In this document: positions 58,260-62,060 of the stretch, in pieces
Layout: each line of letters begins with the position of its first letter
Position numbering within the stretch: position 1 is the first letter of the stretch
Assembly: GCA_027491435.1 (NCBI GenBank)
Contig: JAOZFG010000004.1
Location: 124,001 to 188,000 of the forward strand
Direction: 5' to 3'
Length of the DNA: 64,000 bases
Source: Thermoproteota archaeon
GTDB lineage: Archaea; Korarchaeota; Korarchaeia; Korarchaeales; Korarchaeaceae
Translations under genes and position numbers: made by a program
The notes under the pieces: generated by a model
Seen by the model: only the letters and a program-made list of their open reading frames with translations
Told to the model about the DNA's origin: nothing
Databases searched by the model: none

Positions 58260-58859
58260 TTAATTGGACCCTAACTCCTCGGAGAGAACTTCGCTGACTT
58301 CCTCATAAACCTTGCTGGCTGAAAGCTTTATGCTCTTATCCAAAAGCTCTCCGCTTATTCCGGCAGTTTTCTCTATACTCAAGGCCACTGCCATTGAATA
58401 GGCCTCTGAGATTATACCAACACTCCAGAGGACTCCTTTCTCTAATGACAATATCAAATCAGGCTTTCCCCTTTCAACTAGAATATTTGTGATTTTTATT
58501 AGAATAACCCCTATAAGTGCTAAGAACTGTCTCATAGAGACCCCAAACTTACAATGAGCTAGCCCTACTTTGGAGATTTTAAGAGCATGCCTGTAACCAA
58601 AGCCCTCAGAGAAGAGATTCCTAATACACAATTCAAGCAAATTTTCAGCCGCCTCTCTAGTAAGCCCAACGGCCTTCACTATTTCAAAGGATTCTTTGTC
58701 AGCCAATAAGATATCTACGGCCTCTTTTACAACTTCCTTTAAGCCATCATCACCAAGAACTTTATACACTTCCCTAATATTCTTTATATCCTCTTCAGAA
58801 ATTCTCAGAAACTCTCTTAAATTGGAATGTATCTCTTCAAGTCTGCTTATGAACTCCAA
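58260..58859 (-). CDS. Protoglobin-like heme protein
   Basis: 199 residues, all helical, with the layout of protoglobin and globin-coupled sensor domains. An N-terminal LREFLRISEEDIKNIREVYK is followed by helices and a proximal-His segment with the pattern VGLAHCKFGVS (His102). Length and the position of the His match the family. It may bind O2, CO or NO for sensing or storage; no signalling domain is attached. A TTG start at 58859 follows GGTGAG with 5 nt spacing, and a TATA-like ATTTTTATTT lies about 40 nt upstream. Confidence 0.6.
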   Translation of the reverse strand: MEFISRLEEIHSNLREFLRISEEDIKNIREVYKVLGDDGLKEVVKEAVDILLADKESFEIVKAVGLTREAAENLLELCIRNLFSEGFGYRHALKISKVGLAHCKFGVSMRQFLALIGVILIKITNILVERGKPDLILSLEKGVLWSVGIISEAYSMAVALSIEKTAGISGELLDKSIKLSASKVYEEVSEVLSEELGSN

Positions 58860-59551: not shown

Positions 59552-60037
59552 TCAGTATGGTGGCACAATAACCACGATCTTATTTGCCAAAAACCTCCTC
59601 AGGTCGTCCAAGCCCTTTAGGATGAACGTGTCGACTACCTCGTAAGTTTCTACCCTGGTGTTGCCAGCTATTATCACCACCGGGACCTTACCTATCCTCC
59701 TAAAGAAGTAGTATCCATTGTACGGCTTCTCCAAGAACTCCTTCTCCCTATCGGTGAGCATCTTCCCAACTATCTTGCCAATTCCCTCCGGAGCCTTATG
59801 TCCCCCCAACACCACAACTATCTTGGCCCAGCTGAACGATTCGTCGTAGTGCTCTGGCGACCTTACTTCAGCGTCAATCCCCATACCCATCAACGCTTTC
59901 TGTAACTTGGTGGCGGCAGGCCTATCAATGCTGTTAGATATGATGGCCACAGGCCCACTTAAATCAGCAGCTGTAATCGCTACAGGAGTTAATAGGATTG
60001 CCATAACGAGCACAAGGGAAAGCTTGGACCAGCTCAT
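59552..60037 (-). CDS. Secreted S-layer-associated-type protein
   Basis: About 161 residues: a signal peptide (1-24) followed by an alpha/beta domain. It carries VAIISNSIDRPAATKLQKAL, VVVLGGHKAPEGIGKIVGKML and VVIIAGNTRVETYEVVD, resembling the terminal domain of archaeal S-layer and cell-wall-binding proteins. It is short for an S-layer protein and may be a stand-alone domain. The ATG at 60037 is favoured: a TATA-like CTTATTATG (about 60060-60068) would start transcription there. A longer frame begins at 60061. Confidence 0.6.
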   Translation of the reverse strand: MSWSKLSLVLVMAILLTPVAITAADLSGPVAIISNSIDRPAATKLQKALMGMGIDAEVRSPEHYDESFSWAKIVVVLGGHKAPEGIGKIVGKMLTDREKEFLEKPYNGYYFFRRIGKVPVVIIAGNTRVETYEVVDTFILKGLDDLRRFLANKIVVIVPPY

Positions 60038-60090
60038 CACTATCAGGGCCGGGGACGGCATAATAAGGTTTCCATGTTCAAAATCAAACT

Positions 60091-60100
60091 ATTTTTATTT
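60091..60100 (+). promoter_or_regulatory. TATA box of the C/D box sRNA
   Basis: ATTTTTATTT lies with its centre about 26 nt before 60121, where the sRNA's terminal stem begins. Confidence 0.55.
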
Positions 60101-60120
60101 GTACGTCGTATCGTCAACTT

Positions 60121-60179
60121 GGCCTATGATGAGAATTCCTTCGCCGGCATCAATGACGACCGACGGGCGGCCTGAGGCC
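60121..60179 (+). ncRNA. C/D box guide sRNA, predicted target 16S rRNA C1402
   Basis: Box C ATGATGA (60126-60132), C'-like ATGACGA (60153-60159) and box D CTGA (60172-60175) are flanked by GGCC on each side (60121-60124 and 60176-60179), which pair as a short terminal stem. The D guide CGACGGGCGG (60161-60170) is complementary over ten bases to the universal 16S sequence CCGCCCGUCG. By the rule of the fifth base before box D, the methylated nucleotide is C1402 in E. coli numbering. The D' box is degenerate (near 60145-60150), and its target is not assigned. A TATA box stands at the right distance upstream. Confidence 0.75.
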
Positions 60180-60374
60180 GCCTACCTATCTAACCTCACA
60201 TGTCTAGGCCTTCGGGGGCTGCTGGGGATAGCTTATGAGTTATGATAGTCACATGCCTATCAGGATCTTATCAGGCGCAGCCCCTCCTGGAGAGGGTTCA
60301 GGAAGGGGGCTTTCCTCCGCAAGATACCCAAACCCTCTTTTATATACACAGGCCCTATTTCAGGGTGTTGAGGG
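60180..60374 (+). promoter_or_regulatory. Upstream region and promoter of the antiporter gene
   Basis: A TATA element CTTTTATATAC (about 60336-60346) would start transcription near 60367, just before the ATG at 60375. The left part (60180-60330) is non-coding and G/C-rich for this genome; I see no further gene. Confidence 0.5.
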
Positions 60375-62060
60375 ATGGGAGGAGAGGCCGTTCATATAGG
60401 AGGAATAATCTACATGACCATAGCCGTGTCCCTAGCCGTTCTATACAACAGGATAAGCCCGATAGTAATCCTCCCATCCCTCATGATCGCATCCCTTATA
60501 GGCAAGGCCTTTGGCGTCGCTCCCCCACTGATAATAGCCTCTCTGAGCCCTTTCGCTTTAGCTCTCTTAGTGTTCACGGCAGGTATTGAGCTGGATACCG
60601 ACTTCTTCAAGAAGGAGAAGGAGAGGCTCCTTTTCTTCATATTCGTTGAAGCCTCCATAATACTGACCCTATACGGGATCCTCAGGACCGTGTGGTCTTG
60701 GGAGATGGCCCTAACCTTAACGGCCATAATGATCGCATCAAATGAGGCCTTTGCCTATGAGTTGGGAAAGAAGATTGATAAGACCCTCGCTAATTACGGG
60801 ATAGCTATATCCATAATGGAGGACTCCCTGGCCATATTGCTAGCTTCAATAGGCTATTTCACTTCTCTAAAAGTCTCTCAGGAGGTGTTAGTGGCCGTTA
60901 CAGCTTGGAGCCTCCTGTCAATAATAGTGTCTTACTTTATCTCCATCTGGATAGACAGGATGATTAAAAGAGCTAGGGAGTTGAGCACTAAAGTCCTGAT
61001 AACCCTCCTCTACCTGCTCATACTAATCTCGATGTCAGAGCTAATGCACATGCCTGAGGCGCTAATAGTTTTCATAGGGGCCATAGCGATAGCCTTTAGG
61101 GGGTTTGACAAGGAGACTCTGAAGGTCATAGAGAGCTTCATGATCCTTGCTTTGATGGGCTTCGTGATGAGCCTGCCGTACGAGGTAACCTTAAAGGGGG
61201 CCCCCACGTTATTTGACGTGGGAGTGATCTACTTTAAGGCAGTGTTGCTCGGCTTCATCTTGGCAATTTTAGCCTTCATTATAAGGTTTGCAGCCCTCTT
61301 CTCAGCTTTCTTCTTGAGCGGGATAGAGTTCATGAGGGGGCTGAGGCTCAGCGTCGCTCTAGCTAACACAGGTGAATTTGGGCTAGTAGTTCTAGCCACA
61401 CTCCTAGCTGGCGGTCTGGAACTCCCTCCCGAGGTGGCTTTAGGCGCCATGTTCGCCTACGCCTTTAACCTGACCATCTTAAACCTGTTAGTCAATAGGA
61501 TAGGCCCCATTATAGCCTGGATGACTCAAGGTCCCACGGCGGAGATAATGGAGAAGGTTAGGGAAGCCCATAAAGAGGTGAAGCTCATAGTAGATGGGCT
61601 ATTCTCAGACGTTAACTTCAAGAGGCACATATACGAGCTCATATTCCTGGGCACTATGACCTATTTCTTGACGGGCCTATTCTACAGAGTAGCTGAGAAT
61701 CCCTTGCTGTCCCAAGTGGTCGTGGTGCTTATGACCTCCGCCCTATTCTCGTCCCTGTTCGTCGTGTTTAACAGGATATCCCAGGACTTGTTGAGGGCTG
61801 GCGCAGGTTTCTCTTACAACAAGGCTTTCAGCTCTATACTGAGAATTCTAATAATTTACGTGATACTTCTGCCGTTGATAGGGCTGGTGAGCGACCTAAT
61901 AAGGAGGAGTATCAAGGTAACCTTCTCAAACCCCCTGATCTTCCTGTTGATAGTGTTCTTCTCAGTGTTCTTCGTGAAGATGGCCGACTCGTTCATAAAC
62001 ATGCTGTCCAAAGGTGTTCCCGGTGAGATACCTGGCGTTGGGCAACCTGACTCTGGATGA
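60375..62060 (+). CDS. CPA2-type cation/proton antiporter
   Basis: 561 residues with twelve or more membrane helices. It has the Kef/NapA-type pattern: LLVFTAGIELD in helix 3, SNEAFAYELGK and IMEDSLAILLAS in the ion-binding helices, and ALANTGEFGLVVLATLL near 330. The C terminus has further helices (about 425-545) in place of the usual soluble TrkA domain. It probably exchanges Na+ or K+ for H+. The overlap of its end with the PfkB kinase gene is 38-47 nt, depending on the start chosen there. Confidence 0.87.
   Translation: MGGEAVHIGGIIYMTIAVSLAVLYNRISPIVILPSLMIASLIGKAFGVAPPLIIASLSPFALALLVFTAGIELDTDFFKKEKERLLFFIFVEASIILTLYGILRTVWSWEMALTLTAIMIASNEAFAYELGKKIDKTLANYGIAISIMEDSLAILLASIGYFTSLKVSQEVLVAVTAWSLLSIIVSYFISIWIDRMIKRARELSTKVLITLLYLLILISMSELMHMPEALIVFIGAIAIAFRGFDKETLKVIESFMILALMGFVMSLPYEVTLKGAPTLFDVGVIYFKAVLLGFILAILAFIIRFAALFSAFFLSGIEFMRGLRLSVALANTGEFGLVVLATLLAGGLELPPEVALGAMFAYAFNLTILNLLVNRIGPIIAWMTQGPTAEIMEKVREAHKEVKLIVDGLFSDVNFKRHIYELIFLGTMTYFLTGLFYRVAENPLLSQVVVVLMTSALFSSLFVVFNRISQDLLRAGAGFSYNKAFSSILRILIIYVILLPLIGLVSDLIRRSIKVTFSNPLIFLLIVFFSVFFVKMADSFINMLSKGVPGEIPGVGQPDSG

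Follow-up and report, generated by a model that had tools for sequence, protein, structure and literature searches.

An archaeal dual-guide C/D box sRNA gene predicted to target C1402 and most likely A915 of 16S rRNA

Positions 60121-60179 of the 64,000-nucleotide stretch of archaeal DNA analysed here (the window) very probably constitute a gene for a dual-guide C/D box sRNA, which has its own TATA/BRE promoter and would target C1402 and, most likely, A915 of 16S rRNA. Comparison with related genomes (genomes, contigs and loci are denoted by G, C and L) confirms, at the level of sequence, that this is a real and conserved gene.

Direct reading of the gene gives GGCC-T-ATGATGA-GAATTCCTTCGC-CGGC-ATCA-ATGACGA-CCGACGGGCGGC-CTGA-GGCC (Table 1), i.e. 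it contains boxes C, C' and D as well as the GGCC/GGCC terminal stem, as described in the first-pass annotation of this DNA, and both guide regions comprise 12 nt. The three-base bulge TAT, which starts with T60125, and the abutment of box D on the 3' strand of the stem would correspond to the standard geometry of a k-turn. Pairing of the terminal stem is retained in homologues despite altered sequence, the variants among the members being GGCC/GGCC, GGGCC/GGCCC, GGCC/GGTC and, in G016 and G020, GGCGCC/GGCGCC. Box D' is variable among the relatives and reads CTGA in G025, G016, G020 and G002. Thermodynamic folding of the region was no better than that of shuffles (z 0.20), which is expected for a k-turn RNA and thus uninformative. 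The RNA gene matched no Rfam family at the gathering threshold, and weak similarities to sR1 (the best score, 17.8 bits versus a threshold of 45 bits) and sR2 (16.1 versus 42 bits) were not taken as evidence as both scores are below threshold.

Table 1. Features of the RNA gene and its surroundings (window positions).
Feature	Position	Strand	Remarks
Divergent neighbour gene, 169-aa protein	59552-60061	-	no Pfam match
Promoter-like element: A-rich BRE-like bases, then TATA-like ATTTTTAT	60088-60098	+	A+T profile over 21 loci
Terminal stem, 5' strand GGCC	60121-60124	+	pairs with 60176-60179
Box C ATGATGA	60126-60132	+	exact RUGAUGA; homologues nearly all RTGATGA or ATGAGGA
D' guide GAATTCCTTCGC (conserved guide stretch AATTCCTT)	60133-60144	+	ATTCCTT core invariant in alignment
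Box D' position, CGGC (degenerate)	60145-60148	+	aligns with CTGA of G025, G016 and G020, 12 nt past box C
Box C' ATGACGA	60153-60159	+	one change from RUGAUGA; TG and G invariant in alignment, homologues mostly ATGAGGA/ATGACGA
D guide CCGACGGGCGGC, 12 nt	60160-60171	+	kept in 17 aligned homologues
Box D CTGA	60172-60175	+	invariant in alignment
Terminal stem, 3' strand GGCC	60176-60179	+	starts directly after box D
Sodium/hydrogen exchanger gene	60375-62060	+	right of the RNA gene

When 180 bases were compared with 61 genomes by BLAST, strong foreign matches were confined to 60121-60179 (within three bases) and the flanks were unmatched. These matches (81-83% identity, E-values of 6e-10 to 8e-11) are located in G022 and G023, which belong to another genus of the same family, and in G025, from another family of the class. 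A search of 345 genomes for GACGGGCGG-N(0-8)-CTGA found the one-base spacing in 14 of the 16 genomes of the genus and in four more of the same family (G018, G019, G022, G023), other spacings being scattered. Moreover, a sequence-only model built from 17 homologues and searched in the 26 genomes of the class identified full-length homologues in 21 of them, and G016, G017 and G020, although outside the training set of the model, gave full-length matches with E-values from 1e-13 to 2e-10. These 21 genomes preserve the boxes, the D guide and the register, the opposite of the loss of boxes in relatives that had been named as speaking against the prediction. Almost no homologue departs from the D guide or from its register to box D, and in the alignment both the GGGCGG core of this guide and the ATTCCTT stretch of the D' guide are invariant. 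G018 contains the D-guide half only, the rest of its RNA being different, and the sequence model found no homologue in G004, G021 and G024, which are 63-71% complete. Neither did it detect one in G012, a 99% complete member of the genus that shares the 16S target, so that the RNA may either be dispensable or have diverged there. Besides the orthologous copy of the RNA gene, a further possible guide for C1402 is located in G016 at L236 (C30:36594-36625, minus strand), which reads AACGGGCGG-G-CTGA followed by GGTCTC.

The TATA box that had been proposed 26 nt upstream was found as the AT-rich ATTTTTAT at 60091-60098, the centre of which is about 26 nt from the RNA gene, and it is present at a fixed distance in 21 homologous loci, where the A+T fraction is 0.86-1.00 at -32 to -28 and 0.81-0.86 at -38 to -36 relative to box C. 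The RNA gene is thus preceded by what reads as a conserved archaeal TATA/BRE; a scan of the region for bacterial σ70 promoters and terminators was set aside as not applicable to archaea. In 13 loci of the genus the divergent neighbour gene adjoins the RNA, with 37-46% amino acid identity, and therefore these loci are orthologous, while the right-hand gene has no match across them. The protein encoded at 58260-58859 on the minus strand shows a match to a Protoglobin domain (E 2.3e-6).

C1402 is located at the P site of the ribosome, and its ribose is methylated by a protein in bacteria and by an RNA guide in eukaryotes. The organism's own 16S and 23S rRNA genes are absent from its 43-contig assembly and the target was therefore taken from the 16S rRNA of relatives, which around this site reads CCGCCCGTCAA.. 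in five congeneric genomes and two from the same family, all with A at position 1408 (..ACACACCGCCCGTCAA.. around the target). In numbering based on the universal 1392 primer site, CCGCCCGUC corresponds to 16S 1399-1407. In the 16S rRNA of six relatives C1407-C1399 form nine contiguous Watson-Crick pairs with 60162-60170, and the fifth base before box D, 60167, faces C1402, in agreement with the register given by the first-pass annotation. The latter had counted ten pairs, nine of which are contiguous as claimed; the tenth is lost as C60161 faces A1408 in the relatives, where G1408 had been assumed. C1399-C1407 is the best rRNA site of the D guide in all six relatives, matches to 23S rRNA being shorter, and a second 16S site, CCGCCCGT, offers eight pairs in four members of the genus and is lost in G022 and G023. 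Judged by pairing and register, the D guide almost certainly directs ribose methylation at C1402, and methylation of this nucleotide is strongly predicted.

The guide content had been recognised correctly as regards the D guide, but the equally conserved D' guide had been overlooked. Its best 16S site in six relatives is 913/914-921, with AAGGAAUU corresponding to 914-921 in numbering based on the archaeal 915 primer site. Nucleotides 60134-60142 are complementary to 16S 921-913, followed by a G.U pair at 60143 (912), i.e. the guide of the window extends to 913 (C-G) and 912 (G.U) on the 16S rRNA of G001, G005, G022 and G023, and forms eight pairs with that of G009 and G011. One could argue that the D guide alone acts on rRNA, the D' guide being an orphan or targeting another RNA, given that the window has a degenerate box D', that this box varies among relatives and that pairing at 913 is not kept in G001 and G005, the own guides of which have an A facing G913 and at most eight contiguous pairs. 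However, ATTCCTT, the invariant part of the guide, has its best 16S match at 914-921, and the guide base facing 913 is T in G009 and G011, where the 16S rRNA has A913 and pairing becomes longer, and C in G022 and G023, where it has G913, rendering an orphan D' guide unlikely. A D' guide for 16S rRNA is thus preferred, and its target is probably A915 (or A914). With box D' set 12 nt past box C, as suggested by the position of CTGA in G025, G016 and G020, the fifth base before D', 60140, faces A915, and the spacing of 13 nt observed in G002 would shift this position to A914. As box D' reads CGGC in the window and is variable elsewhere, the register between A914 and A915 is uncertain, and methylation at A915 is, due to the degenerate box, predicted with less confidence than that at C1402.

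Guides for C1402 are not limited to this class. A scan of GTDB genomes with TGATGA-N(2-32)-GACGGGCGG-N-CTGA yielded at least 119 loci; among the matches listed most are bacterial chance matches with scattered gaps, and at least 16 are archaeal, mostly with full C/D anatomy. The Aciduliprofundum-like genomes G109 and G250 as well as G118 encode C/D RNAs that share this D guide and have a D' guide for 16S AAGGCUGAA / AAGACUGAA (E. coli 900-908). Eight loci of Aciduliprofundum/DHVE2 type (L087, L088, L098, L113, L131, L156, L159, L198) have canonical C/D sRNAs with the same C1402 D guide and the D' guide TTCAGCCTTA or a sequence near to it, the D' guide of this type having been matched to 16S 900-908 in G109 and G250. 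At L089 and L090 (G053 and G203) the C1402 guide apparently precedes an internal CTGA, i.e. the D' position, which is followed by a C'-like box, and the second guide forms ten pairs with 16S GCUACAAUGG (about 1233-1242). C1402 thus has several unrelated putative guides in archaea, and their coupling to a guide for the 900-921 strand is seen with two or more distinct guide sequences.

In 16S rRNA 913-921 provides the 3' strand of the central pseudoknot, and 1399-1407 lies at the start of helix 44, the two being distant in sequence and close in the folded subunit. The main selected role of the sRNA might thus be that of a chaperone, with both guides holding 913-921 and 1399-1407 together until release and methylation being secondary. 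Both guides are indeed kept together across the class, the Aciduliprofundum-like genomes and G118 also join a C1402 guide to one for 16S 900-908 with a different sequence, and a role as folding chaperones has been proposed for dual guides to distant 16S strands, e.g. sR17 of N. equitans on helix 28 (PMC4644070). On the other hand, the register to box D is as strictly kept as the guide itself, and register is needed for methylation and not for simple pairing; moreover, G053 and G203 join the C1402 guide to another 16S site. We therefore regard chaperoning as the main role as improbable, and methylation directed by both guides remains the favoured reading. Since the coupling of C1402 and 900-921 recurs with unrelated guides, in this class and in Aciduliprofundum-type archaea, a single RNA that holds the pseudoknot and helix 44 strands while methylating both might constitute a folding or quality-control step, although we consider this rather doubtful, too.

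That the guide match is coincidental, or a piece of the 112-aa open reading frame at 59907-60245, which spans the RNA gene, is extremely improbable, as conservation is limited to the 59 bases of the sRNA, homologues differ by 1-4 bases in length between the guides, which breaks the frame, and tblastn with the open reading frame returns either short stretches that overlap the sRNA or reading frames lying antisense to the neighbour gene. A boxed, in-register 9-mer (box C and box D) complementary to the relatives' 16S or 23S rRNA occurs once in the window versus 0.13 expected per randomised window, a figure that alone is only suggestive; it is conservation that settles the non-chance origin.

Based on these features the gene would be transcribed from its own TATA/BRE promoter, and boxes C and D together with the terminal stem would form a k-turn and C' and D' an internal k-loop, on which L7Ae, Nop5 and fibrillarin would assemble. 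Pairing of the D guide with C1399-C1407 would then place fibrillarin on the ribose of C1402, and pairing of the D' guide with 913-921 most likely on that of A915. The genes for fibrillarin and Nop5 are located side by side in this genome (G000 C10; E 7.9e-90 and 3.4e-65), and L7Ae is described as a universal archaeal protein (PMC5539422). Searches of G000, G001 and G009 did not detect RsmI (TIGR00096), and RsmH (PF01795) was found neither in these genomes nor in G022. G022 has a TIGR00096 match below threshold, which is most likely a related enzyme with tetrapyrrole-methylase fold. The presence of fibrillarin and Nop5, and RsmI and RsmH not being found, support the earlier suggestion that the archaeon may reach the 2'-O-methyl mark at C1402 by an RNA guide.

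The bacterial enzymes RsmI and RsmH also modify C1402 (2'-O-methyl and N4-methyl, respectively), but they are protein enzymes, and of the two bacterial marks the sRNA would match only the 2'-O-methyl group. In eukaryotes the equivalent nucleotide (yeast 18S Cm1639, human Cm1703, Arabidopsis Cm1645) is likewise 2'-O-methylated in an RNA-guided manner by yeast snR70 or vertebrate U43 (PMC2653536), snoRNAs that differ in size from the archaeal RNA and for which no sequence homology is claimed. In archaea, Cm1369 of P. abyssi, tabulated together with E. coli Cm1402, yeast Cm1639 and Arabidopsis Cm1645 in a 2024 review that refers to the study of Pyrococcus sRNAs by Gaspin et al. 2000 (PMC11542601, Table 2), is the same 16S nucleotide, the likeness referring to the modified site alone and not to guide sequence. 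In its main text, a survey of seven archaea describes predictions for helix 44 as sparse and does not name the C1402 site (PMC4644070).

As for architecture, the sR RNAs of Sulfolobus and Pyrococcus share with the window RNA the order C-D'-C'-D, 12-nt spacers, a terminal k-turn stem, the N+5 register and a length of about 60 nt, but the guide sequences are unrelated, box D' of the window RNA is degenerate and it belongs to no Rfam family at threshold. N. equitans sR17 (PMC4644070) resembles it in having two guides on 16S strands around helix 28 that are distant in sequence and close in the fold, although its target sites differ. As a second guide, directed to the central pseudoknot strand, is conserved alongside the first, the idea of sRNAs as chaperones becomes testable, and a deeply conserved archaeal family of C1402 guides, together with several unrelated archaeal guides, suggests selection for the mark irrespective of the route by which it is made. 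Taken together, the window RNA can be regarded, from its sequence, as a new family of orthologues within a known kind of guide RNA, since the equivalents of C1402 are RNA-guided in eukaryotes and the site is listed for P. abyssi, i.e. RNA-guided methylation of C1402 as such is already known.
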